Positions 29,252 to 47,431 of a DNA stretch of 48,617 nucleotides are shown in pieces; positions within the stretch are counted from its first letter, which is position 1, and each line of letters opens with the position of its first letter. A program made the translations under genes and the position numbers. The notes under the pieces are model-generated. The model was given only the letters and a program-made list of their open reading frames with translations, ran no database searches and was not told the origin of the DNA. This DNA is from Desulfobacterales bacterium RIFOXYA12_FULL_46_15 (GTDB taxonomy: Bacteria > Desulfobacterota > Desulfobacteria > Desulfobacterales > Desulfobacteraceae), in the NCBI GenBank assembly GCA_001799395.1, contig MGTJ01000196.1, positions 8,623 through 57,239 on the forward strand. Reading direction: 5' to 3'.

Positions 29252-30508
29252 TTGTTTATCAAAAAAATTATATTGGCTGTTTTATTGATCCTGCTGCTGA
29301 TCGTTCCGCTTACCAGGCTCGATGCCCCGGCCGGGGGCGGGAAACAATCCGGGACCGGGATTTCAAAACAAACCCCGGCTCCCCAAAGGTATGTGGTCAA
29401 AGGATCGAAAATTATCGATGTAAAAAAACAAACTCCTCTTTTTTTCAGGGGCATTGGTTATTCTCCCTATCTGTCCAATGAAACACCCTTGAAGGGTGAG
29501 CCCCCGGGCAATGATGACCGTTATAAAGAGCATTTTGCCCTAATGAAAGAAATGGGCGTTAATTATATCCATGTTTTTCCCACAAAAATGCCGGAGAAAT
29601 TTTTTAAAGAGCTGGATAAGACTGATATGCTTTACGGGCAGGATATCTGGATCTGGGCCTATGAAGAGGATTTTCTTTTTGAACCGTTTCTGTCCAAAAC
29701 CATGGAGGATATTAAAGCCGCCATTGATCACGTGTACAAGACAGGCCGGCCGGACCGGCTGGTTTTGTTTTCCATCGGAGATGAACTCCAGGCCGATTCC
29801 GTGGTCCGGACCGATACCCGGCATCCCGGGGTCAAAAGCTTTAAAGGCAAGCATGTGAGTGTTGAAAACAGAACTCCCACGGAAATCGCCCTTGCCCGGC
29901 TGATTGACGGTGCCATGGATTATGAATTGACGCGTTACGGACAACGGCACCTCTATTGCCATACAAGCTGGACCCATATCGGTCCCATCGGCAACCGGCC
30001 CGATATTGAAGTGCCTGAAGAAAATATGATCCATCCGGATCTGGGCGATCTTATCTGTCTCAATATTTATACCTATGCTAAAGGGGTGCGCACTTCGCCT
30101 CCCGGTTCAGTCACCGGTACCCCTTATCAAGGTTACCTGGAAGAGTTGACGGCCCAGGCCGACAAGCCTGTATTCATAACCCAGGTCGGTCTTTCCACCT
30201 CCCCCTTTGAGCCGAAACCATGGGTGCCGGGGTTTGGGGGGCATAAAATTGAGGATGTGCCCAAGGCGTTTGAAGCCGTCTGGAAGGATATCCGAACGGC
30301 AAAGGGAAAAGAAAAAATCTGCGGGGTTTCCTTTTTTGAACTCAATGATGAATGGTGGAAGAGCGGTGAAGACCCGGCCGATTCCGCCCGCCATGAAATA
30401 GAAGACCCTGAAGAATGGTTCGGTTTCTACGAAGTGGGGCCGGATCAACGCCTGGTCCCCAAAGGCAGGATTCCGGAAACCATCAAAAAGTTGTACGGGA
30501 GTCCCTGA
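29252..30508 (+). CDS. Exported glycoside hydrolase-like protein (clan A-type barrel)
   Basis: 418 residues starting at TTG after AGGGGTAGGGA. A hydrophobic N-terminal segment (about 5-21) serves as signal or anchor, followed by a Gly/Pro/Gln-rich linker. The body looks like a (beta/alpha)8 glycosidase of the GH2/GH5/GH17/GH72 kind: FFRGIGYSPY, MKEMGVNYIHVFP, an acid/base-like Glu in LFSIGDELQ (178), YTYAKG, and a C-terminal GVSFFELNDEWWKSG. At the expected nucleophile strand (KPVFITQVGLS) the usual Glu is Gln (311). It could be a glucan-remodelling enzyme or transglycosylase, or a carbohydrate-binding relic. It follows the LTA-synthase-type gene by 10 bases, and its 3' end overlaps the convergent lipid-synthase gene by 26 bases. 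Confidence 0.7.
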   Translation: MFIKKIILAVLLILLLIVPLTRLDAPAGGGKQSGTGISKQTPAPQRYVVKGSKIIDVKKQTPLFFRGIGYSPYLSNETPLKGEPPGNDDRYKEHFALMKEMGVNYIHVFPTKMPEKFFKELDKTDMLYGQDIWIWAYEEDFLFEPFLSKTMEDIKAAIDHVYKTGRPDRLVLFSIGDELQADSVVRTDTRHPGVKSFKGKHVSVENRTPTEIALARLIDGAMDYELTRYGQRHLYCHTSWTHIGPIGNRPDIEVPEENMIHPDLGDLICLNIYTYAKGVRTSPPGSVTGTPYQGYLEELTAQADKPVFITQVGLSTSPFEPKPWVPGFGGHKIEDVPKAFEAVWKDIRTAKGKEKICGVSFFELNDEWWKSGEDPADSARHEIEDPEEWFGFYEVGPDQRLVPKGRIPETIKKLYGSP

Positions 30509-33500
30509 CCCTCTCTAAGGTATTCAAAGGGGACGTTGAAACAAGTTTTTTAAAAGCAATGCCGAAATTCTTTAATTCATATATGCAGATGCCGTCCACA
30601 CTGAGTGCTCCGTCGGCAACAACCGTGTAGCCTGTATCGCCAGGGGCTGCATCTTTGATATGGGCGATAATCTCAATCTTATTATTTTCCGGTACAATCT
30701 GGCCCCGGTAAATCCATTCATGGGGCGTCCCGGTTAAGAGGCAGGGCTCATATTCATGGGGGTCGATACGAAATTTTTTAAAAAGAAAAAAACGAATGGC
30801 CTGGAGAAAGGATTCAATACCAAGCGAGCCGGGGCAGACAGGATCCTGGTAGAAATGAGCGTTAAAGAACCATTCTTTTGGATCAACCGTTTTTATGGCC
30901 TTGACATATCCTTTTCCATATAAACCTGCATTAAAATCTAAAATTTCAATCTTATCAATCATCCTGAGTGCTTTGGAGGGCATCCCGGAATCTGTATCTG
31001 TTTTATGATCATCAGGAGTCATGGGGGCATCATCTTTAAATTCAAACAGCACGGGTTTCAGGTTTTTTTCCGGAAAATTTTCGAATTTACAATTCCTGAT
31101 CCCCACTTGATTGGCAAGCACCTTGCCCGTAAAAAAACCAAAATTAGTGCTTCCTTTATAAATCAGGTCTTTATTGTTCAGCATGTCTATTTCAAATTCC
31201 TGGATAATCATGCCCCCGGCTTTGGAAACATCTTTCATGCGGGTCCTGATCACTATGGTGCCTGAATGCCTGGACAACGATTGAAATAAAACCGCCTTCC
31301 CCCCTAAATTTCTGAAATAGAGCCGGTCGCTGCTTACAAGGGCGGAGCCGGCATAAGCAGCCAGCCATCCGCAGGGCTGGAGGGCAATCTCAAGCAAAAT
31401 ACAAAACGGTATGGTTTGTGTCCGGTTGGCTTTAAAATACCAGGCATGTTCCGGAATATCATATTCGGTTTCGATCCATCCGCCGGGCTGCATTTTCCAC
31501 TGGGGGTGATCAACAGTCATCACCCTGTCCATAAAAAAATAAGGAGGCCTTGGAAGACGGGCAATTTTTCGTTCCTGGTCAAATCCCAGGTATTTTTCTC
31601 CAAAGGCTTCGGAAGGATTCCCTTCAGCAAAGGCAAGGATGCTGTCTTTTGAAAAAAGAGGTTTTTTTTTAAATTTATCCGTTAAAGAAGGATCGGTTAT
31701 GGCCTCAAAACCAGTGATGCTGGCCACAACGACATTCTCTTCATTAAAAAAAGTGAAATAACCAATGATTCTGTTTTTGGTTTCTTCACTGACAATAAAT
31801 AGAATCCTGAAGTCACCCTTAAGATTATTAAAGGATGCATACAGCCTTAAGCTTGCAATATAGACCGGCAGGCAGACCTGGCCCATTTTTTCACGGGACC
31901 AGAGTATGGCAGCCTGGAATGCCGAATCCAGCATCATGGGGTCAATAACCCATCTTGAACCGGGATAGTTTTTAATCCACTCTTCCGGATGTGGGGAAAG
32001 CCGGGTGGTGATTTCAATTCCCTTTTCAGAATATCCGCTGATGGATTTGATGGATTGCATCCTATCCCCATGAAAAAGGGTAGAAGAATATGCTTCTTTT
32101 GCAGATAACGAATAGGGTGAAGGTTTCATGAAAGCATCGCTGGAAAGCACAGGCGGAGCCGGGCGGCCGTCCTTTAAGATGATTCTGCAGCTTGAATGAA
32201 TAAACGCATCACGGCCATTGTTGTCTTCTGATACAATATTGCTGGGGATCACCCATTTTGTCCCTTCGGGCTGACATTTCCCGAGATTGACAGACACCTT
32301 AATTTCTCCGTTACCGGGTTTAATTCCCTTTAAAAGGCGCATATTGTCCATTCCGGCAAATACAAGTCCGGGATTGTTTTTTTCAGATGCCTTGGCGTGG
32401 CATTCCATGATGATGGCAAAGGGAACCACAGGTTCGCCATTGATCTGATGTGATAGCAATACCGGCGATGTATGAATCCCAAAGGAAAATGTCATGGCTT
32501 TTGACAGTTTCGGCTCTTTCGGCTTTTTCAAGGTTTCTGGGGCAAATCCGCCAATGATGACTTCCGGGCCGGTCAGGGTTTTATTTCCCATTTCCATTAA
32601 AAATTGTTCAGCCCCTTTTTTCAAAGGGATAAGGGCAATGCCTTTTTTTGTGAATTCTTTTCTTAAAGATTCATCCACCATGCCGCCTTCCCAGGGGCCC
32701 CAGTTTATGGAAAGATATTTACAAAAAGGATAGGTTGCTGCAAGTTTTTGCGCAGTCTTGTTCAATACCTCATTGGCCATGGCATAATCACACTGGCCCT
32801 GGTTTCCGGTTCTGGCTGCAATGGAAGAAAAAAGGACGCAATATTTAAGCGTATCCTTTTCTGAGGCAGACAATAATACCTCAAGCCCTTTGACTTTTGT
32901 TTCCAGCACCCGGGTGAACGGGTCTGTCTGTTTATCTATTATGAGTTTGTCATCAATGACGCCTGCACCATGGATAATAGCTGTTATAGGGCCGAACTCT
33001 TCTCTTACGGCCTTAAAAACAGAAAAGATTTCATTATTATTCCGGATATCGGCAGAGAAATATTTGACCTTTGACCCATATTGCCGCATGACTTGAATAT
33101 TATTTTCTATTTGTCGATGGGAAATGATTTTTTGATATTCTTTTTCTATATCAACAGGTCTTGGCATCCGGCCGTTAAAGATGTGGGTCAATATGGCTTT
33201 TTTCAGTGCGGCAGGCTCATAAAGGTTTTTTGCCCATTCCGGTTCGGATAAGGTCAGGGAAGTCCTGCCGATGAGGATCAGCACCGGGGAATGTTTTTTG
33301 GCGATTTCAATGCCACAGGCGGCTGTCACGCCCCTGGCACCGCCGGTAATGATCACCACATCCTCTTTGTTCAGATATAGGGCCTCATGATCAATGTCCT
33401 GGTCCACAAGATCCGGGATATTGCAGAAATCTTCATCCAGACCCATCTCAACAGCCCCATGGGTCATCATCAGGGAGACAGCGGCTTCTGCATGTTGAAC

Positions 33501-36500
33501 GGCTTTTTCCTTTGAATCCGGTAGATCCAATGCCCGGCACAACACGTTTTTCCATTCAAGATTAGCGGTTTTTGCAAGTCCGGCAAGCCCGCCATAAACA
33601 GGATCGGTGCCAAAGGCTTTGCCGTCAAATCCAAAACCGCCGCCTAAAAAGGAGACAACAGCAAAAAAGGCACCTTTTTGTTTTGCCGCATTCATCAGAT
33701 AACCGGCATTGGTCCGGACCAGGAGAAAAGCGGATTTTAAAAACCCGATCCCGGCAGACGACAAAGCCTTGTTGAATGCATCAGGCACAATGACAATCCC
33801 TGCCGCATCAGGACATTCAGGAATCTTTCCATCCCTGATATCAATAAGACAGCAAGGTATTCCCAGTTTTTTAAATTCTATCTGAAACTGTTCCGATATA
33901 CCGGCGCTATCCTTTGTGATATATACTTTTTTTTTTAGCGGCAGTTCTATTTTAGCGCCGTTGTAAAACCGGATCTCATTGGTGGGATATTTTTTTAATG
34001 AGACGATCTTACGGGTCAGGGGCATATCCGGATTGACCCTATCCGGCTTTGCGGATGATTCAGGGTCAGGCAAAGGCGTTTTCTTGACAGGTTCCGGCAG
34101 TGAATTCTGATTATCCTTTGAAAGAAATTCGATAATTTCCCTGATGGTTTTCAGTTTCCCGATATCATCCGATGAAATCCTTTCGATATGATCCAGTTCC
34201 TGTTCAAGCCTGGAAAGGATTTCCACCCGTTTGATGGAATCAATCCCCAGATCAGACTCAAGATTCATGGAAGGCTCCAGCATCTCATAAGGAAATCCCG
34301 TCAATTCACTGATGGTATTTATTAATAGGGTTGAAACGGTTTGATAAAGATCGGTTTTGGAATTTTTCAGTGTCTGTGTTTCAGTATCGGCCAAGATTGC
34401 CTGAGGAACAGGGTTGTCATGCCTGGCCTGATGCCGGATGGCAAGACAGATGTCCTGAAGTGTCCGGACAGAGCCCATGCTTTCGGTCGTTATGCCTTCA
34501 CATCCTGGGATCTGTTTTTCAAGTTCTGAAATAATTTCAACTTTCTTGATTGAATCAATACCGAGATCCGATTCAATATCCATGTTTGATTCAAGCATTT
34601 CAGAAGGAAATCCTGTAAGCCGGCTCACAATCCCGAACAGAATTGTTTCAATCCCGTCATCCAAGTGTTCTGAAATGGGTTCGACATCTTGTACAAGGGT
34701 TACAGGTTCAGTTTCTTTTGGTTTTTCAATGTCATCAGAAAATTTCAACACAGAAGGGCCGGATGGAGAAAAGGCAAGATTGCGGGTCTGTTCCAGCATG
34801 CTTGCCAGGGTTTTGCTTGCCTGGGCCTGGGTGTCAAGAAATTTTTCATGGGCACTGGCGGTCCGTGCCTGAAGCTGTTGCATGGCTTCAAGTCCTTTTT
34901 CTACCATTTTCATGGCTTCAAGGGCCGGATAAAAATAGTTCCCGGACTGATTCTGCTTTTGTTGAGATGTCATATCCTCACCTTTTAATGTGGGCACAAG
35001 GTCAACCGGGTTTTTCCGATCTGCGGGGTTTTCCGGTTTTGATTGGGGAATATTGCATTTGTTCACAGGTTTGGGATTAGCACCGGTAAGTTCTATTATC
35101 ATCCTTTTGGGGTCGATTTTTTCCCCGGGTTCCTCCCAGGGGGTAAGATCAATGGGAAACCCCTTTGACGCAATGATGCATAAAACACGGGCAAGATCTA
35201 AAATCCCGGATTTTTTTCCGCATGAGGCATCCAAAGAAACGGCTGTGATATCCCGGTCCTTCAAGATGGTTTTTGTCAGATCCGTGAGAACGGTTTTGGG
35301 TCCGACTTCAATAAAGGTCGTAACCTCTTTTTCAAACATTTTTTTTATATTATCAAGAAAGTTTACCGGGTTTATCAGTTGATTACCAAGAATCTCTTTG
35401 ATTTTCGATTCTTCTTTATCATAGGAATCGCCTGTTGTGTTTGAAAACACCTCTATTTGAGTCGGGCAAAAAGACCTGGATGTCAGGCATGCGTTAAAAG
35501 GAGTGACTGCATCTTTTACAAGCCGGCTGTGAAAGGCGGCAGCCACAGGCAGCTTAACAGCCTTAAGCTTTTTTTGCCTGCATAATTTTTTTGCCCTGAG
35601 GATTTCATCGGTAGAGCCTGATAACACGCCCTGGGTCTGGCTGTTCCTGTTTGCCAGGATAAGATCCAGGTTTTCTTCTTTTATAAGGGCCTCAATATCA
35701 GCCAAAGATGCCTGGACTGCCAGCATACTGCCCGGATCACCACCGTTCATGGATTTGGCCGAGGCCATATATTTGCCCCTGGCTGCGGAAAGCTTAAAAA
35801 ATGCGGGTTCATCCATCCACCCGGCCGAATACAGGGCACATAGCTCTCCAAAGCTGTGACCACAGGCCATTGCAGGGCTTATCTTGAATCGCTTCAGCAC
35901 CTTCACCATGGCTGAGGAGATGGCACCGATAGCGGGCTGGGCAATATCGGTTTCACGAAGTTTATCTTCTGATCTGTCTTTTGGCTGTATATGGATGGGA
36001 AGCGGATAGATATAATCCTGCAGGGCTTTATAATCTTTATCCGTATTTTCACTTAAAAAGGATTGAGAAGCCGTTTTTAAGGTTTCCATGGCTTCAGGGA
36101 AAAGGGAGACCAGGTCTTTTCCCATACCCGTATACTGGCTTCCCTGGCCCGGGAATAAAAACCCGAGTTTTCCTCTTCCGGTATGGGTTGAAAAATAGAC
36201 ATCCGGATGCAACTGGCCTGTTCCAGCGCTTTCCAGGGCAGTATCCAGAAGCCTGACAATATCCTCGCCGGCTCTATATATCAGGAGCAGTCTGTATCTT
36301 TGATTCACATCAAAAATCATCCTGGAGTCATGGGACTTTTGAGCAATGGTCCGGTTAAGCTGCAATGCATCATCCAAGAAAGGAAGACTTGTCTTAAAGG
36401 CATTGATTCTTTTTAACACGCCTTCTTTTGTGTCTGATGAAAAAGCAATGATTTGAACCGAGCCATCCCAGGAAATATGGGTCTTTGAAGGACTGTATTC

Positions 36501-37895
36501 TTCCAGAACCACATGGAAATTACTGCCGCCAAAACCAAAGGCGCTGACACCGGACCTCCTGGGATAAAAAGAGGATATCCAGGGTTTGGATTCTGAGTTG
36601 AGGTAAAATGAGGAGTTTTCAATATTGAGTTCAGGATCAGGTTCAATTGCTTTTAATGTCGGCAAAATCACTTTGTTATAAAGGCTGAGGGCTGCTTTGA
36701 TCATGCCTGCCGCTCCTGCTGCCGCTTTTGTGTGACCGATCATGGATTTGACAGAGCCCACAGCAATTTGATGCTTCCCGGAACAAGGGTCAAAACATAA
36801 TCTTAAAGCTTCAAATTCCACCTTATCCCCCACGCGCGTACCGGTCCCGTGGGCTTCGACAAGTCCCACCGTGGAAGGATTGATGTCTGCTTCCTGGTAG
36901 GCTTCGTTCAAGGCCCTTAACTGGCCTTTTGAATCCGGGGCATAGATGGCGGATGTTTTTCCGTCGCTGGAGGTTCCCACACCTTTGATCACAGCATAGA
37001 TTTTATCATTGTCTTTTTCGGCATCTTCAAGGCGTTTTAACACCAGCATTCCGATACCCTCTCCCAAAACAGTACCGTCGGCATCCTTTGAAAAAGGTCT
37101 GGCATCACTGGTGTGGGACAGAACCCCTGTTTTTGAAAAACACATGTGCATGAAAATATCATTCAAGGTGTCCACGCCGCCGGTGATGGACATATCACAT
37201 TTCCCGGCTGTAAGTTCCATGACGGCTGTATGGATGGCGGATAAAGAGCTTGCACAGGCAGCATCGGCTACGGTATTGGTTCCTGAAAGATTCATGCGGT
37301 TGGCGATCCGTCCTGCCACCACATTGCCGAGAAGGCCGGGAAAGGAATTCTCCTGCCATTCAACATATCCGCCCTGAATCCGCTGAATGATTTCTTCTTT
37401 TTTTTCTTTGGTGATACCCGAATCTTCCAGGGCCTTTTTCCAGATGGGGTGGCCAAGCCGCGAACCCAGAGGGATGACCAGTTCCTGGGTGCCGGTGACC
37501 CCTAAAATAACATTGACCTTTTTTTGTTCCAGAAACGGGTGCCCCATGGGATAACCTGCATCTTCCAGGGCCATCCTTGCCACTTCAAGACCCAGGAGCT
37601 GGGATGTGTCGGTTGCCTCCAGATTGTTGGGAGGAATCCCGAAACTTAAGGGGTCAAAACTGACAGGGGGAAGAAAACCACCACGCCTGCAATAGGTATG
37701 ATCCGGTTTTGCCGGGTCCTGATCAAAATAGTCGTTTAATTTCCAGTGGGTGTCGGAAGGAATGTCTTGAACGGCATCAATTCCGTTATACAAAAGATGC
37801 CAGTATTCTTTCAGGTTTCTGGATTTCGGGAAGATACATCCCATACCGATGATGGCAACAAAGGGTTTACTATAAGCTGTATTTTTTTTATTCAT
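30483..37895 (-). CDS. Single-chain PUFA/secondary-lipid synthase (KS-AT-ACP-ACP-KR-DH-DH-DH)
   Basis: 2,470 residues from the ATG at 37895 (GAG five bases before); a TTG three codons upstream is possible. KS (about 10-470): Cys 214 in DAACASSLSA, His 349 in EAHGTGT, His 388 in MIGHTKAAAG. AT (575-895): Ser 681 in CGHSFGEL. A coiled linker follows, then two ACPs with LGIDSIKK/LGIDSIKR (Ser 1115 and 1220). KR (about 1505-1770): TGGARGVTAACG and CDYAMANE. A polyketide-type DH (1800-2070) has HQINGEPVVP and DPMMLDSAFQ. Two FabA-like hot-dog domains come last (2085-2270 and 2310-2450; FNAHFYQDPVCPGSLG in the second). This order equals PfaA fused to the dehydratase end of PfaC, without the PfaC KS and chain-length-factor domains. 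It would build a long, possibly unsaturated or hydroxylated acyl chain iteratively with the PfaD-like protein upstream. No phosphopantetheinyl transferase is in the window. Confidence 0.9.
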   Translation of the reverse strand: MNKKNTAYSKPFVAIIGMGCIFPKSRNLKEYWHLLYNGIDAVQDIPSDTHWKLNDYFDQDPAKPDHTYCRRGGFLPPVSFDPLSFGIPPNNLEATDTSQLLGLEVARMALEDAGYPMGHPFLEQKKVNVILGVTGTQELVIPLGSRLGHPIWKKALEDSGITKEKKEEIIQRIQGGYVEWQENSFPGLLGNVVAGRIANRMNLSGTNTVADAACASSLSAIHTAVMELTAGKCDMSITGGVDTLNDIFMHMCFSKTGVLSHTSDARPFSKDADGTVLGEGIGMLVLKRLEDAEKDNDKIYAVIKGVGTSSDGKTSAIYAPDSKGQLRALNEAYQEADINPSTVGLVEAHGTGTRVGDKVEFEALRLCFDPCSGKHQIAVGSVKSMIGHTKAAAGAAGMIKAALSLYNKVILPTLKAIEPDPELNIENSSFYLNSESKPWISSFYPRRSGVSAFGFGGSNFHVVLEEYSPSKTHISWDGSVQIIAFSSDTKEGVLKRINAFKTSLPFLDDALQLNRTIAQKSHDSRMIFDVNQRYRLLLIYRAGEDIVRLLDTALESAGTGQLHPDVYFSTHTGRGKLGFLFPGQGSQYTGMGKDLVSLFPEAMETLKTASQSFLSENTDKDYKALQDYIYPLPIHIQPKDRSEDKLRETDIAQPAIGAISSAMVKVLKRFKISPAMACGHSFGELCALYSAGWMDEPAFFKLSAARGKYMASAKSMNGGDPGSMLAVQASLADIEALIKEENLDLILANRNSQTQGVLSGSTDEILRAKKLCRQKKLKAVKLPVAAAFHSRLVKDAVTPFNACLTSRSFCPTQIEVFSNTTGDSYDKEESKIKEILGNQLINPVNFLDNIKKMFEKEVTTFIEVGPKTVLTDLTKTILKDRDITAVSLDASCGKKSGILDLARVLCIIASKGFPIDLTPWEEPGEKIDPKRMIIELTGANPKPVNKCNIPQSKPENPADRKNPVDLVPTLKGEDMTSQQKQNQSGNYFYPALEAMKMVEKGLEAMQQLQARTASAHEKFLDTQAQASKTLASMLEQTRNLAFSPSGPSVLKFSDDIEKPKETEPVTLVQDVEPISEHLDDGIETILFGIVSRLTGFPSEMLESNMDIESDLGIDSIKKVEIISELEKQIPGCEGITTESMGSVRTLQDICLAIRHQARHDNPVPQAILADTETQTLKNSKTDLYQTVSTLLINTISELTGFPYEMLEPSMNLESDLGIDSIKRVEILSRLEQELDHIERISSDDIGKLKTIREIIEFLSKDNQNSLPEPVKKTPLPDPESSAKPDRVNPDMPLTRKIVSLKKYPTNEIRFYNGAKIELPLKKKVYITKDSAGISEQFQIEFKKLGIPCCLIDIRDGKIPECPDAAGIVIVPDAFNKALSSAGIGFLKSAFLLVRTNAGYLMNAAKQKGAFFAVVSFLGGGFGFDGKAFGTDPVYGGLAGLAKTANLEWKNVLCRALDLPDSKEKAVQHAEAAVSLMMTHGAVEMGLDEDFCNIPDLVDQDIDHEALYLNKEDVVIITGGARGVTAACGIEIAKKHSPVLILIGRTSLTLSEPEWAKNLYEPAALKKAILTHIFNGRMPRPVDIEKEYQKIISHRQIENNIQVMRQYGSKVKYFSADIRNNNEIFSVFKAVREEFGPITAIIHGAGVIDDKLIIDKQTDPFTRVLETKVKGLEVLLSASEKDTLKYCVLFSSIAARTGNQGQCDYAMANEVLNKTAQKLAATYPFCKYLSINWGPWEGGMVDESLRKEFTKKGIALIPLKKGAEQFLMEMGNKTLTGPEVIIGGFAPETLKKPKEPKLSKAMTFSFGIHTSPVLLSHQINGEPVVPFAIIMECHAKASEKNNPGLVFAGMDNMRLLKGIKPGNGEIKVSVNLGKCQPEGTKWVIPSNIVSEDNNGRDAFIHSSCRIILKDGRPAPPVLSSDAFMKPSPYSLSAKEAYSSTLFHGDRMQSIKSISGYSEKGIEITTRLSPHPEEWIKNYPGSRWVIDPMMLDSAFQAAILWSREKMGQVCLPVYIASLRLYASFNNLKGDFRILFIVSEETKNRIIGYFTFFNEENVVVASITGFEAITDPSLTDKFKKKPLFSKDSILAFAEGNPSEAFGEKYLGFDQERKIARLPRPPYFFMDRVMTVDHPQWKMQPGGWIETEYDIPEHAWYFKANRTQTIPFCILLEIALQPCGWLAAYAGSALVSSDRLYFRNLGGKAVLFQSLSRHSGTIVIRTRMKDVSKAGGMIIQEFEIDMLNNKDLIYKGSTNFGFFTGKVLANQVGIRNCKFENFPEKNLKPVLFEFKDDAPMTPDDHKTDTDSGMPSKALRMIDKIEILDFNAGLYGKGYVKAIKTVDPKEWFFNAHFYQDPVCPGSLGIESFLQAIRFFLFKKFRIDPHEYEPCLLTGTPHEWIYRGQIVPENNKIEIIAHIKDAAPGDTGYTVVADGALSVDGICIYELKNFGIAFKKLVSTSPLNTLERVRDSRTTF

Positions 37896-38006
37896 ATTAC
37901 TCAAATTTAGGATTTAAATAATTAAAATTATAGGCAATATACTTGTTTGAGGATTTAAAATGCACCCGGCCGCCAGGAATTTGACAAAAGTTTTACATAG
38001 GTATGG

Positions 38007-39596
38007 CTATCCTAAATAAGAAAGAATTTCCTTTAACGGCAAGGGCTTGGATGAACCGGCATCTATACCAATGTCGATGCCTTGAATTTTTAATATGGAT
38101 GCACGGGTACAGACGCATGCACCGAAAAGAATGTTTAAAGCGATTTCTGCGGTTTTCCGGTTTTCATGAGATTCGAGAAAGCTTCCTTTGGCCCATTGAT
38201 TAAATGCCCCGATGGAAGGCCCGCACCAGATCTGGTAATCCATCTTTCTGTGGGGGATGCCCCGGATGGCCCATTTTGAGGAAAGTCCAAGATAGGATCT
38301 GAATACCAGGGCCATTTTATGCCTGGGGTCGGCTTCTGCTTTCTCGATTTCCTTTTTGTTGTTGGTTCTGAGGAAAAATTCCTTTGTGGAAGTCCAGGCA
38401 TCTTCAAAACTTGCCTGTAAAAATTTTTCCTGAATTTCCTGTCTTGATTTTTCGTCAATTTCATCAAACCGGCGGCAGGACTGGTATAAACGATACAATT
38501 TTTCAGCCCTGACAGGAAAGAGGGTCCCCCGTTTCAGAACCTGGACCCTTGCCCCGATTTCAAACATATCTGCGGCAGGAGCCATGGCCACATCAGCCTG
38601 ATCCGCCTCAGAGAGCAATTTTTTAACATCGTCGCAGATTCCGGCTTCAACGCAGGACTGATTGACAGACCCGGTCAATATATAGGCTGCGCCCATTTGA
38701 AAGGCTGCAGCAGCCGATTCCGGGGTAGCTATCCCGCCGGCAAGACCCACACATAAAGGGTCTTTGTAATGATAGGTTTTCATGGATTCATTTTTCAGCG
38801 ATATCATGGTCGGCAAAAGAGCCAGGGCCGGTCGGTTATCCGTGTGTCCGCCTGAATCGGCTTCTGCCGTCAGATCCTGTGCCATGGGGATATATTGGGA
38901 AAGCCTGGCTTCGGCTTCGGTGATCATTTGACTCAGAAGAAGGGACTGCACCAGTTTCATGGGCGGGGGTGAGAAAAACTGGCGGGCTATTTCAACCCTG
39001 GAAATTTTTGCAATGATCGTGTTGGGCGCGACAATATTACCGTTACGGTCCTCGTACAGGCCTTTGATCCGGTAATAGACAAGGGCCGGCGTCATGCGCA
39101 GAAATGCAGCCGCACTGATTTGCCGGATTTCATGTTTCAGATAAAGATTGACAGTGGCCATTTCATGGGCCGGGTCCATGAGGGAGTGGATCAGGTTGAA
39201 TCCAAAGGGTTTGCCAGGCAAGGCGGTTTTCAGATCAATGATGGCATCTTCAATTTTATCAATGGAAAGACCACCGGCCCCAAAAAAACCAATCATTCCA
39301 TGTTCAGCCATGGTTTTTACCATGGCGGCCGAAGCGATTCCATTGGCCATGGCACCGGCAATATAGGGGTATTTCAATCCGTGCCGGGTCATGAATCCCG
39401 CATCCCCCAGGTTTTCAGGACCTATTGAGGGAACATAGGCCCTGATTTTCATGACCTTGTCTTTTTTGAGTGAGTCTGTAAAAAAGCCGGCATCTTTGAT
39501 GACAAAGGAGATCCGGTCATCAGTGTCTAACACAAAAAAAGGTTTTTTCACATGCAGGAGCAGATCTTTTAACAGCATTGAAGCTTCAGTTGTCAT
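38007..39596 (-). CDS. pfaD: PfaD-type enoyl reductase (nitronate-monooxygenase-like flavoprotein)
   Basis: 529 residues from the ATG at 39596 (AAAGAACATT before it); a TTG 17 codons upstream has no ribosome binding site. The TIM-barrel flavoprotein has the PfaD hallmarks YPYIAGAMANGI, GFFGAGGLS and the strongly conserved EADSGGHTDNRP (about 245-256), then GLAGGIATPESAAAAF and GAAYILTGSVNQ. The long C-terminal part (FEIGARVQVLKRGTLFP.., then IWCGPSIGAFNQW) is the PfaD-specific extension absent from simple nitronate monooxygenases. The enzyme reduces enoyl intermediates bound to the ACPs of the synthase encoded 111 bases downstream on the same strand. Assembly-line synthases pair with such trans-acting reductases to control unsaturation. 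Confidence 0.92.
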   Translation of the reverse strand: MTTEASMLLKDLLLHVKKPFFVLDTDDRISFVIKDAGFFTDSLKKDKVMKIRAYVPSIGPENLGDAGFMTRHGLKYPYIAGAMANGIASAAMVKTMAEHGMIGFFGAGGLSIDKIEDAIIDLKTALPGKPFGFNLIHSLMDPAHEMATVNLYLKHEIRQISAAAFLRMTPALVYYRIKGLYEDRNGNIVAPNTIIAKISRVEIARQFFSPPPMKLVQSLLLSQMITEAEARLSQYIPMAQDLTAEADSGGHTDNRPALALLPTMISLKNESMKTYHYKDPLCVGLAGGIATPESAAAAFQMGAAYILTGSVNQSCVEAGICDDVKKLLSEADQADVAMAPAADMFEIGARVQVLKRGTLFPVRAEKLYRLYQSCRRFDEIDEKSRQEIQEKFLQASFEDAWTSTKEFFLRTNNKKEIEKAEADPRHKMALVFRSYLGLSSKWAIRGIPHRKMDYQIWCGPSIGAFNQWAKGSFLESHENRKTAEIALNILFGACVCTRASILKIQGIDIGIDAGSSKPLPLKEILSYLG

Positions 39597-39688: not shown

Positions 39689-41086
39689 TCAATAAGGAAG
39701 TCCCTGGTCTTGAAACCGTATTTCAAAGGTCAGGCCGGTTTTGCTGTTTTTTGCAGTAATTTGGCTTTTGCATTGGGTGATAAGTTTTTTTACAATGGAC
39801 AGCCCCAGGCCTGTACCCGGGCTTATGCCTGTCTCTATCCTGAAAAAGGGTTCAAAGATTTTTTTGAGTTCAAGAGGCTTCAATGGCCTGTAGGTGTTGG
39901 TGATGGAGAAGATCAGAATATCATTTTCCGGTTTTATGGCTTTGATTTCAATGACACCGGTTTCATCTGTGTATTTTACGGCATTATCCATAAGGTTTAA
40001 AAGAATGGCGGCAACCCGGCTTTTATCCATATTAAGGATCAGCAAACCCTTTGTGTCCTTTACAAGAGTCAGCTTTTTCTGCTCCAGGGAAGGGATAAAT
40101 TTTTTTTCCAGGTCTGTTATCATCCTGTTAAAATCCAATGGTTCAATGGACAGGGCGGATTCCTGTAGATCCAGTTTTGACATCATCAGTATTTTTTCAA
40201 TCAGGGTGTCCAGAGTCTGTATTTCATGATCAATATTTTTTACATACCGTTTGATATCCTTATCTCCATCAGGCAGAAGCTTGTCCTGAATCATTTCATT
40301 GGATACTCTGATCCGTGTCAGGGGACTTCTGAGTTCATGGGAGATATTGGCTGTCAGCTCTTTTTTCCCCTGTATCATTTTTTCAAGCTTGTCAGCCATG
40401 AAATTAAAGGAATTCCCAAGTTCTGCGATTTCATCTTGGCCTTTGATGTCGATTCGCTTATCAAGATTCCCGTCCGCAAATTCCAGAGCTGATTGATTCA
40501 ATTGTTTGATCCTGTTTGTAATGATTTTAGTCAAGGGCACAATGAGGACGGCGATGATTATGCCGATACTTAAAAGGCCAAGGTGAAACAGGGCTTCAGG
40601 TTTGTCGGAGTGTTCTGCAAAAAGATAAATATGCAAGGTGCTGATGGTGTTGCCGGTCTTGAGAGGAAGGGTTGCATAATAGGAAATGTGCCTTCTGGAA
40701 AGATAATACAGGTTGATCCCGTCCTTCATAACCGAATATTTTTTTTTCTTTTCTACAGGGATATCCCCGGGTGTTGAAAATGTTTTCAGCAACAGAGTGT
40801 CATCCCATGAGGTGACCCAGATTTTCAGATTAAAAAGATCGGAAAAAGAATGGAGCAGATTTTTGACTTCCTTGTTTTCGTTTAAGGGAATGCCCGGCAT
40901 CTGTTCTATTTTTTCCTGGATCATGGCCTGGAAAATTTTAAGTTTTCCAAATGACTGGTTGTCAAGGGTGTTCCTGAATGATCTGCCTGCAGTACCGATA
41001 AACAATAAAAGGCTCAGGATGATTGTAATAAAAAGAATACAAAGAAAGGACAGGAGCAATTTGGTGTAAAGGCTTTTAAATTTCAT
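39689..41086 (-). CDS. CpxA/EnvZ-like sensor histidine kinase
   Basis: 465 residues. Membrane helices at about 10-30 and 168-190 flank a periplasmic domain of about 135 residues; HAMP covers 190-240. HisKA has H250 in TANISHELRSPLTRIRV, and the ATPase domain has NLMDNAVKYTD and GTGLGLSIVKKLI. It overlaps the upstream OmpR-type regulator gene by ATGA, so the pair is co-translated. The neighbourhood resembles cpxRA: a divergent Spy/CpxP-like gene and exact CpxR-box repeats in the shared gap. It likely senses envelope or membrane damage and phosphorylates the regulator. The pfaD gene follows on the same strand after 92 bases with no visible terminator. Confidence 0.92.
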   Translation of the reverse strand: MKFKSLYTKLLLSFLCILFITIILSLLLFIGTAGRSFRNTLDNQSFGKLKIFQAMIQEKIEQMPGIPLNENKEVKNLLHSFSDLFNLKIWVTSWDDTLLLKTFSTPGDIPVEKKKKYSVMKDGINLYYLSRRHISYYATLPLKTGNTISTLHIYLFAEHSDKPEALFHLGLLSIGIIIAVLIVPLTKIITNRIKQLNQSALEFADGNLDKRIDIKGQDEIAELGNSFNFMADKLEKMIQGKKELTANISHELRSPLTRIRVSNEMIQDKLLPDGDKDIKRYVKNIDHEIQTLDTLIEKILMMSKLDLQESALSIEPLDFNRMITDLEKKFIPSLEQKKLTLVKDTKGLLILNMDKSRVAAILLNLMDNAVKYTDETGVIEIKAIKPENDILIFSITNTYRPLKPLELKKIFEPFFRIETGISPGTGLGLSIVKKLITQCKSQITAKNSKTGLTFEIRFQDQGLPY

Positions 41087-41784
41087 AAAGATTCCGTCAA
41101 CATATATCCTGATCCCCAGACGGTTTTGATCCGTTTGGGAGAAGAAGGGTCGTCCTCAATTTTTGATCTTAATTTGCTGATATGAATATCAATGCTTCTG
41201 TCAAAGGCCATGAAGTCTCTCCCCTTTGCCATATTCATGATCTGGTCGCGGCTTAAGACCCTGTTCGGGTTTTTCATCAATACTTCCAGGATATTAAATT
41301 CTGTAGTGGAAAGATCCGTGCACCTGCCTTTTATTTCAACGGTATGGGCAGCCCTGTTCAAAACAAGACCATCAACCTGAAGTATACAATCGTTTTTTTG
41401 AACCGATATTAAAGAAGGTATTGCCTGACGGCGAAGAATGGCTTTTATCCTGGCCAGAAGTTCCCGGGGGTTAAAAGGTTTGGCAAGATAGTCGTCGGCG
41501 CCCAGTTCAAGACCTACGATCTTATCGGTATCATCCCCTCTGGCCGTCAGCATGATCACGGGAAGATCATGCCGGGTGCGGATGTCCCGAAGCACTTCAA
41601 GTCCGTCTTTCCCAGGCATCATATAGTCAAGGATGATAAGATCCGGTGTTTTATCAGATATCTTTTCAAGGGCGTGACGGCCGTCAAGAAGATAAGAAAT
41701 CCTGAATTGGTTTTGTTCAAGATATTCAGTCAAAAGTTCGATCAGTTTGATATCATCATCAATGATCAGAATATGCTTATTCAT
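41083..41784 (-). CDS. CpxR/OmpR-family response regulator
   Basis: 233 residues. The receiver has D9-D11 acidic pocket, phosphoacceptor D53 (LIILDYMMPGKDG), MLTARGDD and the conserved Lys in YLAKPFNPREL. A winged-helix effector follows (STTEFNILEVLMKNPNRVLSR, FDRSIDIHISKLRSKI, IKTVWGSGYML). The ATG is preceded by AAAGGATGGATTC. Phosphorylated OmpR-type regulators bind tandem direct repeats; an exact GTAAA-N5-GTAAA CpxR box lies 33 bases upstream of the start codon, so autoregulation and control of the divergent Spy-like gene are expected. The same operon may read through into the lipid-synthase genes. Confidence 0.93.
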   Translation of the reverse strand: MNKHILIIDDDIKLIELLTEYLEQNQFRISYLLDGRHALEKISDKTPDLIILDYMMPGKDGLEVLRDIRTRHDLPVIMLTARGDDTDKIVGLELGADDYLAKPFNPRELLARIKAILRRQAIPSLISVQKNDCILQVDGLVLNRAAHTVEIKGRCTDLSTTEFNILEVLMKNPNRVLSRDQIMNMAKGRDFMAFDRSIDIHISKLRSKIEDDPSSPKRIKTVWGSGYMLTESL

Positions 41785-46543: not shown

Positions 46544-47431
46544 TTAACTTCTCGGATGATATTCATGGTGCATTTTTATGAGATATTCTTTTGAAATATG
46601 AGTGTATATCTGCGTTGTGGATATATCTGAATGCCCCAGCATGGCTTGAACAGATCTTAAATCAGCGCCTCCTTCAAGAAGGTGTGTGGCAAACGAATGC
46701 CGGAGTGTGTGCGGGGTGATATTTTTTGAGAGTTTGGCCATCAGACCGTATTTTTTTAATATTTTCCAGAAACCCTGACGAGTCATGGGTTTACCTGCCC
46801 TTGCAAAAAACAGATACGGGCTTGATAATTGGTTTAAAACAACCGGCCTTCCTTCCTTTATCCATTTTTGGATAACTGTGCCGGCAGGGGTGCCGAAAGG
46901 AATGATTCTTTCTTTTGATCCTTTTCCCATGACCCTGACACAGTTTGCATCCAGATTGACATCCTGCAATTTTAGAAAAATAAGCTCGGAAACTCTCAAT
47001 CCTGAGCCATACATGATTTCCATCATGGCGGAATTTCTCAATTCCCTTGGATTGCTTATGTCCGGAATGTCCAGGAGAGCCGACACTTCCTGGACGGTTA
47101 GAAATTTCGGCAGCGAAACTCCGGTCTTTGGGATACCTACATTTTTTAAGGGGTTGGCTGAAATCACCTTTTCATTTAACAGATATTTAAAAAAACCGCG
47201 GACGGAGATCAAGTGCCGGGCCCTTGATTTAGCCGACAACCCGTTTTTTGCAAGGTCGATCAGCCAGGCCAGAATGACTGTTAAATCCACACCATTGACA
47301 AAGCCTATTTTATTTTTTTCAAGAAAGGTTAAAAACTGGGCAAGATCTGCTGAATATGACATGAGGCTGTTTTTGGACAAGCCTTTTTCAATGATGAGAT
47401 AGTCAAGATAATTTTGAGTCAGTTCATCCAT
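46544..47431 (-). CDS. xerD: Tyrosine site-specific recombinase, XerD type
   Basis: 295 residues, the standard XerC/D length. The N-terminal SAM-like core-binding domain (NYLDYLIIEKGLSKNSLMSY) is followed by the catalytic domain with all active residues: R146 (GSGLRVSEL), K170 (MGKGSKER), H241-x-x-R244 (HTLRHSFATHLLEGG), H267 (LGHSDISTTQ) and nucleophile Y276 (IYTHIS). XerC/D resolve chromosome dimers at dif near the terminus. No prophage or integron features are beside it, so a housekeeping Xer protein is likelier than an element integrase. It begins three bases after the stop of the FGE-family gene and so shares its transcript. Confidence 0.93.
   Translation of the reverse strand: MDELTQNYLDYLIIEKGLSKNSLMSYSADLAQFLTFLEKNKIGFVNGVDLTVILAWLIDLAKNGLSAKSRARHLISVRGFFKYLLNEKVISANPLKNVGIPKTGVSLPKFLTVQEVSALLDIPDISNPRELRNSAMMEIMYGSGLRVSELIFLKLQDVNLDANCVRVMGKGSKERIIPFGTPAGTVIQKWIKEGRPVVLNQLSSPYLFFARAGKPMTRQGFWKILKKYGLMAKLSKNITPHTLRHSFATHLLEGGADLRSVQAMLGHSDISTTQIYTHISKEYLIKMHHEYHPRS

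Follow-up and report, generated by a model that had tools for sequence, protein, structure and literature searches.

Which role does a large synthase of the polyunsaturated fatty acid (PUFA) type play in a member of the Desulfobacteraceae, if the genes around it hold neither a second ketosynthase (KS) nor a chain-length factor (CLF)? The question is raised by a stretch of 48,617 nucleotides from Desulfobacterales bacterium RIFOXYA12_FULL_46_15 (GenBank assembly GCA_001799395.1, contig MGTJ01000196.1, positions 8,623 to 57,239 of the forward strand), referred to as the window, in which a multidomain protein (P0001) is encoded next to a PfaD-type enoyl reductase (ER). An original prediction, made from these letters alone, read the pair as a compact synthase that works on its own and needs no CLF to set its chain length. 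Based on the rest of the genome (G000; 4.74 Mb, 250 contigs, 96% complete), which was searched with the P0001 protein, and on relatives inside and outside the Desulfobacteraceae (the family in the following), we consider it fairly probable that P0001 belongs, as its PfaA subunit, to a Pfa/Ole pathway that was once encoded by a single operon, broken up in this family, and whose product would be a long polyunsaturated hydrocarbon.

The assignment of the pair to the PUFA type was borne out. In NCBIfam profile searches, P0001 (an open reading frame, ORF, of 2473 aa with the Met at residue 4, position 37895, as the likelier start) reaches 1333.7 bits with the PfaA model TIGR02813 (curated cut-off 1010.1), and its neighbour 611 bits with the PfaD model TIGR02814 (cut-off 449). 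A FastTree phylogeny of 98 KS rows, none of them a gammaproteobacterial (Shewanella or Photobacterium) reference, resolves the PfaA KS (29 rows), the PfaC KS (27, support 0.87) and the CLF (27) as one clade each; the KS of P0001 groups inside the PfaA clade, all 29 rows of which keep Cys-His-His. Pfam places KS (residues 16-418), acyltransferase (AT, 582-883), PP-binding, ketoreductase (KR, 1517-1739), PS-DH (1932-2067) and FabA (2309-2444) in this order, and catalytic motifs were located in the KS (C217/H352/H391), the AT (S684) and the PS-DH (H1819), while each of the two tandem acyl carrier proteins (ACPs) has the serine motif LGIDSIK, at 1114 and 1219. We take these KS, AT, ACP and PS-DH motifs to carry their customary meanings, and the GHSFGE and AAFHS motifs of the AT presumably mark a malonyl type. 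The predicted order KS-AT-ACP-ACP-KR-dehydratase (DH) with a PfaC dehydratase end fused on is thus upheld by Pfam domains, motifs and the dehydratase tree described below. The two ACPs, which had been counted as a special feature, are indeed present, but are not peculiar to the fused chain, since all three unfused PfaA relatives aligned also have two.

The C-terminal end itself had to be reinterpreted. It had been read as two FabA-like dehydratases, bringing the total to three, all with active-site motifs; residues ~2080-2455, however, form a single double-hotdog dehydratase (DH2). When the last 404 residues of P0001 were aligned with 20 relatives, the first hotdog of P0001 turned out to lack a His where FabA has its catalytic one (WYFKANR..PFCILLE), and E103 (first half) and H281 (second half) of the segment proved invariant in all 21 rows. 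The AlphaFold model is a double hotdog (predicted local distance difference test 89.6, predicted template modelling, TM, score 0.87); its best PDB match spanning both halves is 2cf2_C, a chain of the mammalian fatty-acid synthase architecture model (TM score 0.67 relative to the query), whereas against single FabA chains the match covers ~150 columns. Alignment, structure model and PDB match together rule out two independent FabA dehydratases, and because the first hotdog lacks the FabA His and the model is one double hotdog, P0001 likely has two catalytic dehydratase sites, the polyketide synthase (PKS)-type one and DH2, not three.

That there is one KS and no CLF is true of the window, where no KS-CLF gene was found among the ORFs scanned, but not of the genome. 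Contig C9 encodes a protein of 1423 aa (P0003) with the order KS-CLF-FabA-type dehydratase (DH1), directly followed by OleA-, OleB- and OleC-like genes. Its first KS keeps Cys-His-His and hence is intact, its second groups with the CLFs and is devoid of the Cys, which is missing in all 27 CLF rows, and its dehydratase groups among the DH1s. The genome therefore holds the second KS and the CLF of a complete Pfa system, outside the window, as well as both FabA-type units, DH1 on P0003 and DH2 on P0001. Once this gene had turned up, a CLF-less synthase was rejected. The original prediction had itself named a second KS/CLF acting with the synthase as evidence that would overturn it; such a gene exists, on contig C9 rather than just outside the window, and would act jointly with P0001. 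By our own reading of the match list, 32 of 35 family genomes have a P0003 orthologue; none was found in G016, G018 and G031 (56, 78 and 70% complete). A free-standing synthase, for which it can be said that P0001 and PfaD hold the domains for a full cycle and that the scanned window ORFs offer no KS-CLF gene, is thus very improbable in view of so widely conserved a partner descending from the same operon.

By Pfam, P0003 has no AT, and neither a PfaB nor an AT on a PfaBC protein was found; in G000, ATs were detected (TIGR00128, E 1e-20) only on contigs C184, C196 and C109. OleA, OleB and OleC counterparts are all present on C9, where the ole genes reach 427 bits with NF006720 (cut-off 285) and 718 bits with NF006754 (cut-off 478), both broad models. 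The OleB-like protein is an alpha/beta hydrolase by Pfam, the OleC-like one stays below the cut-offs of the OleC-specific models NF045785/6, and identity to the Geobacter pfa-ole genes amounts to 46-52%. Between the OleB- and OleC-like genes lies a gene for a lysine-rich protein of 262 aa with a likely membrane segment (L009:3981-4769, minus strand), for which no Pfam family scored above cut-off and which occupies the same place in four further family loci (L173-L176).

The origin of the two loci can be read from Geobacter, where one locus (L138) has the order PfaD, PfaA, KS-CLF-AT-DH1-DH2 protein, OleA, OleB, OleC, repeated as far as OleB in another (L113). Outside the family, KS-CLF proteins carry DH1 and DH2 in 18 of the 19 mapped, from six phyla (the maps leave out four fetched loci, L166, L167, L169 and L172); the exception is G051, in which DH2 has moved to PfaA as in the Desulfobacteraceae. 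Within the family, DH1 alone follows in all eight KS-CLF proteins mapped, and DH2 stands at the PfaA end in 14 of 14 loci, nine times in one ORF, four times borne by the second of two ORFs (Desulfobacter and Desulfamplus) and once cut by the contig end. A tree of 60 dehydratase units, likewise free of Shewanella and Photobacterium sequences, splits DH1 (27) from DH2 (33) at 100/100 and places the unit of the window inside the Desulfobacterales DH2s; the DH2 rows of the family and G051 form one group weakly (74/36), so that one move of DH2 or two both fit. In G028, a family member, both halves lie ~8 kb apart on one contig, and the KS-CLF proteins of G030 and G033 have kept an AT-sized insert. 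The domain make-up, the descent of each domain, the co-conservation and the neighbourhood of the Pfa/Ole parts are thereby documented, and the maps and trees show that the family's arrangement descends from a Geobacter-type operon pfaD-pfaA-(KS-CLF-AT-DH1-DH2)-ole and P0003 from the PfaC of that operon.

As to the carriers of the fused chain, of the 584 pattern matches, 550 proved to encode a relative. In the best 80 loci, matches up to ~residue 2450 come from Desulfobacula, Desulfospira, Desulfotignum, Desulfobacter and Desulfamplus, from metagenome-assembled genomes (MAGs) labelled to the family or higher and from one Planctomycetaceae MAG (L150); most of the remaining matches end near residue 2080 or run into the end of a contig. 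In L150 the match extends to P0001 residue 2458 with a span of 10.8 kb, and the fusion there is only a candidate. The locus of G017, from the genus of the window, agrees in position with that of a Desulfobacula MAG (L087). Of the 86 family genomes, 80 have a P0001 homologue, among them 41 of the 42 good ones; G071 (99% complete) gave no match, with 4 of its 34 candidates scored. In G085, which we take to be D. autotrophicum HRM2, PfaD is followed by a fused PfaA-DH2 chain in an ORF of 2567 aa; G008 presumably is D. toluolica Tol2, and G034 probably Desulfospira joergensenii DSM 10085.

From these parts we infer the joint working of the two loci, the roles of the single domains, the product and a link to the membrane. 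DH2 would have moved onto the end of PfaA and the AT would have been lost in most members mapped, with KS-CLF-DH1 staying with the ole genes elsewhere. P0001, PfaD and KS-CLF-DH1 would jointly elongate malonyl units on the ACPs of PfaA, the second KS and the CLF limiting the later rounds, the two FabA-type units dehydrating and isomerising so as to keep cis double bonds, and PfaD reducing the remaining double bonds. OleA would then take the acyl chain from the ACPs towards a long polyunsaturated hydrocarbon of the 31:9 type, and the chain might also enter membrane lipids. According to a published model, a 16:4n-3 chain in P. profundum passes from the PfaA ACPs to OleA, and OleBCD then complete the 31:9 hydrocarbon (PMC6463001); G. 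bemidjiensis, which has pfa and ole genes in tandem, makes 31:9 (PMC4882568; PMC3098273). By analogy with the Photobacterium model, the likeliest product would be a polyunsaturated acyl chain handed to OleA, and because PfaA, PfaD, KS-CLF-DH1 and OleA/B/C are shared with the pfa-ole systems, albeit split over two loci, the 31:9 class is the best guess. Several points weigh against this reading. The P0001 and P0003 loci are unlinked in the genome of the window, six of the eight family KS-CLF proteins mapped have no room for the AT of a PfaBC, no PfaD was found beside the fused PfaA of Desulfospira within the fetched stretches (L085, L218), and the literature searched holds no report of 31:9 from any Desulfobacteraceae. 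Moreover, FabF, FabZ and FabD are missing from the family, which makes a purely secondary role less obvious.

This loss of most of type II fatty-acid synthesis (FAS II) deserves a closer description. FabF scored over its curated cut-off in 19 of 58 relatives, all 19 among the 23 outside the family and none among the 35 inside it. Across 86 family genomes neither FabF (at most 18 candidates per genome scored) nor FabZ exceeded the cut-off in any, with 9 of 14 controls positive for each; below the cut-off, four of the 86 hold a FabF-like gene with an E value of 1e-120 or lower, and four a FabZ-like gene with one of 1e-20 or lower. FabD exceeded its cut-off in 18 of the 23 outsiders; inside the family only G019, one of 35, has such a match, in a frame of 783 aa, and the other family ATs lie in frames of 572 aa or more; a stand-alone FabD of normal size (~300-350 aa) was found in none of the 35. 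FabH (over cut-off) and AcpP are kept, each in 32 of 35. The neighbourhood of acpP is conserved as gltX-acpP-(fabF)-rpiB-glyA-comEB-nrdR-ribD-ribE: in ten outsiders other than G051, fabF stands between acpP and rpiB in seven and beside acpP, with rpiB unseen, in two, and no FabF match lies between acpP and rpiB in any of ten family genomes inspected or in G051. Because this neighbourhood is conserved without fabF, and with single-contig genomes among the 86, we regard the loss as real; that FAS II is merely missing from the assemblies is unlikely. Nor was the ACP operon accepted as a hidden FAS II, its neighbours being RpiB, serine hydroxymethyltransferase, NrdR, RibD and RibE. G051 is likewise without FabF and without a strong stand-alone FabZ, and has kept FabD. 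In the tenth outsider, G048, from another family, a fabF cut off after ~60 codons lies between acpP and rpiB (L206:6686-7053), possibly a loss in progress; contamination of this genome is 9%.

Some FabF-like genes were nevertheless encountered. In G000, a FabF-like KS with an ACP is encoded near the end of contig C36 (L015:7114-8511; 484 bits, cut-off 493.75). It is unlikely to be a surviving FabF, judging by its counterparts in G009 and G019, which stand with ACP, GNAT and radical-SAM genes and have no AT or FabZ among the 10 neighbouring ORFs scanned. G080 and G079, both single-contig family genomes, have similar clusters: in the former (L230:5292-11699) a FabF-like KS (407 bits) stands beside a FabZ-like gene (153.1 bits against a cut-off of 155.15), together with more KS genes, a thioesterase and a stand-alone AT, and in the latter (L231:6614-9370) there are KS, AT and FabZ-like genes. 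The several KS genes may point to a secondary pathway, which is sporadic, given FabZ-like genes in four of 86 genomes. A family-wide loss of FAS II is not named in the literature searched, subscription papers mostly lying outside that search; the absence of fabA and fabZ in HRM2 was noted by Shulse and Allen (2011; PMC3098273).

Where, then, do the membrane fatty acids come from? Since FabF, FabZ and stand-alone FabD are gone, the PUFA-type synthase, a further megasynthase of ~3,900 residues, or both, probably make them. The latter (P0005 type) is a single chain of ~3,700-3,960 residues with the order ER-KS-KS-AT-KS-ACPx4-KR-DH, which 33 of 35 family genomes and 6 of the 23 outsiders carry, with a full-length, D. 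toluolica-like copy at L180:5953-17826; in the genome of the window it is apparently split over contigs C184 (L012) and C240 (L013). One possibility is that P0001, PfaD and KS-CLF-DH1 took over membrane fatty-acid elongation after the loss of FabD, FabF and FabZ, with FabH and the retained AcpP starting or receiving chains, which would be compatible with the Pfa/Ole explanation. Besides the loss itself, including that of fabF beside acpP, and the near-universal P0001 homologue, this is favoured by the family's lipids: they contain 10-methylpalmitate, and the family's tmp methylating genes act on palmitoleate (PMC7791843), so that the family must make cis-unsaturated C16. Strong FabA-type matches in most family genomes lie, among the matches listed, in P0001 and P0003 (G026 and G033 have one further Pfa-like gene), and we therefore think that the Pfa system would supply the unsaturated chains, one or both megasynthases bearing the housekeeping load. 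In addition, a Pfa synthase is able to stand in for FabD in vivo (PMC8174602), and Type S was proposed as a possible core synthase of HRM2 (Shulse and Allen 2011; PMC3098273). Against it stand the G071 genome, the type II cluster of G080 and G079, the tie of KS-CLF-DH1 to ole genes, the equally widespread P0005 type and a divergence faster than that of GlyA: between the genome of the window and G017, G008, G034 and G033, identities are 87/83/78/70% for GlyA, 74/66/57/53% for P0001 and 73/65/56/56% for KS-CLF-DH1, both taken as whole proteins, the KS of P0001 (90/83/76/72%) keeping up. A takeover by the Pfa proteins appears rather unlikely to us.

The alternative that the P0005 type is the housekeeping synthase, the Pfa/Ole pathway making only unsaturated or hydrocarbon side products, fares somewhat better, without reaching even chances. 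Its distribution speaks for it, as do its domains, which in the D. toluolica-like copy cover all steps to a saturated chain, and an identity of about GlyA level (85/79/74/65% in the same pairs), which refers to the first 2,426 residues, excludes KR and DH and thus flatters P0005. It is also carried by G038, G042 and G043, which have no FabD over cut-off and keep FabF, and by G048 with its truncated fabF. On the other hand, G038, G042, G043 and G054 have P0005 and yet keep FabF, no match was found in G030 (80% complete), the second KS keeps the Cys without the two His in six of six rows, and no FabA-type dehydratase was found in P0005, which alone would leave the unsaturated chains unexplained. 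The family and G051 combine the moved DH2 and the P0005 type with an absence of FabF/FabZ, and the outsiders are mixed (G045 and G047 have neither FabF over cut-off nor a P0005 match); it is therefore not possible to pin the loss of FabF on one synthase. The broader view, that the Desulfobacteraceae dismantled FabD/FabF/FabZ elongation and draw their membrane fatty acids from PUFA-type and related megasynthases, P0001 and P0003 giving at least the unsaturated chains, has in our estimate a little less than an even chance, the type II clusters of G080 and G079 weighing slightly against it.

Two features make the system worth attention: DH2 was transplanted, and most of FAS II has gone from the whole family. 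FabF, FabZ and FabD count among the textbook core genes and serve as drug targets; if the broader view is true, a family of sulfate reducers without them would show a secondary-lipid megasynthase replacing a core pathway, and a bacterial lineage that subsists on a secondary-lipid synthase turned to a new purpose. Such a family, with its single-contig genomes and cultured strains, would also open the one-strain suggestion of Shulse and Allen (2011) to direct testing. The move of DH2 is a plain example from nature of how a catalytic domain can switch subunits inside a megasynthase, useful for the engineering of PUFA synthases.

The features of the window are collected in the table. The sensor kinase and the OmpR-type regulator are neighbours of the synthase pair, for which a functional link might at most be considered. 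The other window ORFs scanned (2017-47431) encode many sensor kinases, response regulators, PAS/GGDEF and periplasmic binding proteins, and at 46544-47431 a tyrosine recombinase. Elsewhere in the genome, contig C109 (L014:7529-14563, minus strand) encodes a hybrid of non-ribosomal peptide synthetase and PKS (condensation, adenylation, KS, AT, two carrier domains, thioesterase) beside a FabH-like gene and a TonB receptor.

Table. Synthase locus and neighbouring genes in the window (positions counted from its first nucleotide)
Feature	Position	Strand	Evidence
PfaA-type synthase P0001, KS-AT-ACP-ACP-KR-DH (PKS type)-DH2 (FabA type)	30483..37904	-	Pfam, NCBIfam
P0001 KS, residues 12-478, Cys217/His352/His391	36471..37871	-	motifs, KS tree
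P0001 AT, residues 582-883, GHSFGE + AAFHS	35256..36161	-	Pfam, motifs
P0001 two tandem ACPs, residues ~1085-1280, LGIDSIK twice	34065..34652	-	Pfam, motifs, alignment
P0001 KR, residues ~1511-1760	32625..33374	-	Pfam
P0001 PKS-type dehydratase, residues ~1816-2070, H1819 + DPMMLD	31695..32459	-	Pfam, motifs
P0001 DH2, one double-hotdog FabA-type unit, residues 2080-2455, orthologue of the final PfaC/PfaBC unit elsewhere	30540..31667	-	alignment, tree, model
PfaD-type enoyl reductase, 546 aa, Met at 39596, upstream of P0001	38007..39647	-	TIGR02814
Sensor histidine kinase, neighbour of the pair	39689..41086	-	Pfam, NCBIfam
OmpR-type response regulator, neighbour of the pair	41083..41784	-	Pfam, NCBIfam

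Compared with known systems, the Pfa/Ole parts described here resemble the Type I pfa-ole systems of Geobacter and others: the same parts are present, DH, KS and CLF domains are orthologous by tree, and OleA/B (and C) lie downstream. Unlike in Type I, where one operon includes a KS-CLF-AT-DH1-DH2 protein, the system of the window is divided into two loci, DH2 resides on PfaA and the AT is lost. To the PfaABCD(E) systems of Shewanella and Photobacterium it is linked by TIGR02813 and TIGR02814 scores over cut-off and by KS, CLF and FabA-type units across both loci; it differs from them in having two ACPs on PfaA instead of 4-6, in that no separate PfaB was seen and in the division of the PfaC dehydratases between two proteins. 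In G085, presumably HRM2, PfaD and the same fused PfaA-DH2 chain are found. The closest published kind is the secondary-lipid synthase that Shulse and Allen (2011; PMC3098273) classed as Type S in Desulfobacterium autotrophicum HRM2, the covered parts of their paper giving no origin of DH2, no KS-CLF-DH1-ole locus and no family-wide loss. Known omega-3 Pfa producers, unlike the Desulfobacteraceae, keep FAS II (PMC8174602). Altogether, the architecture in the window is that of a rearranged Pfa system, probably one already catalogued as Type S.

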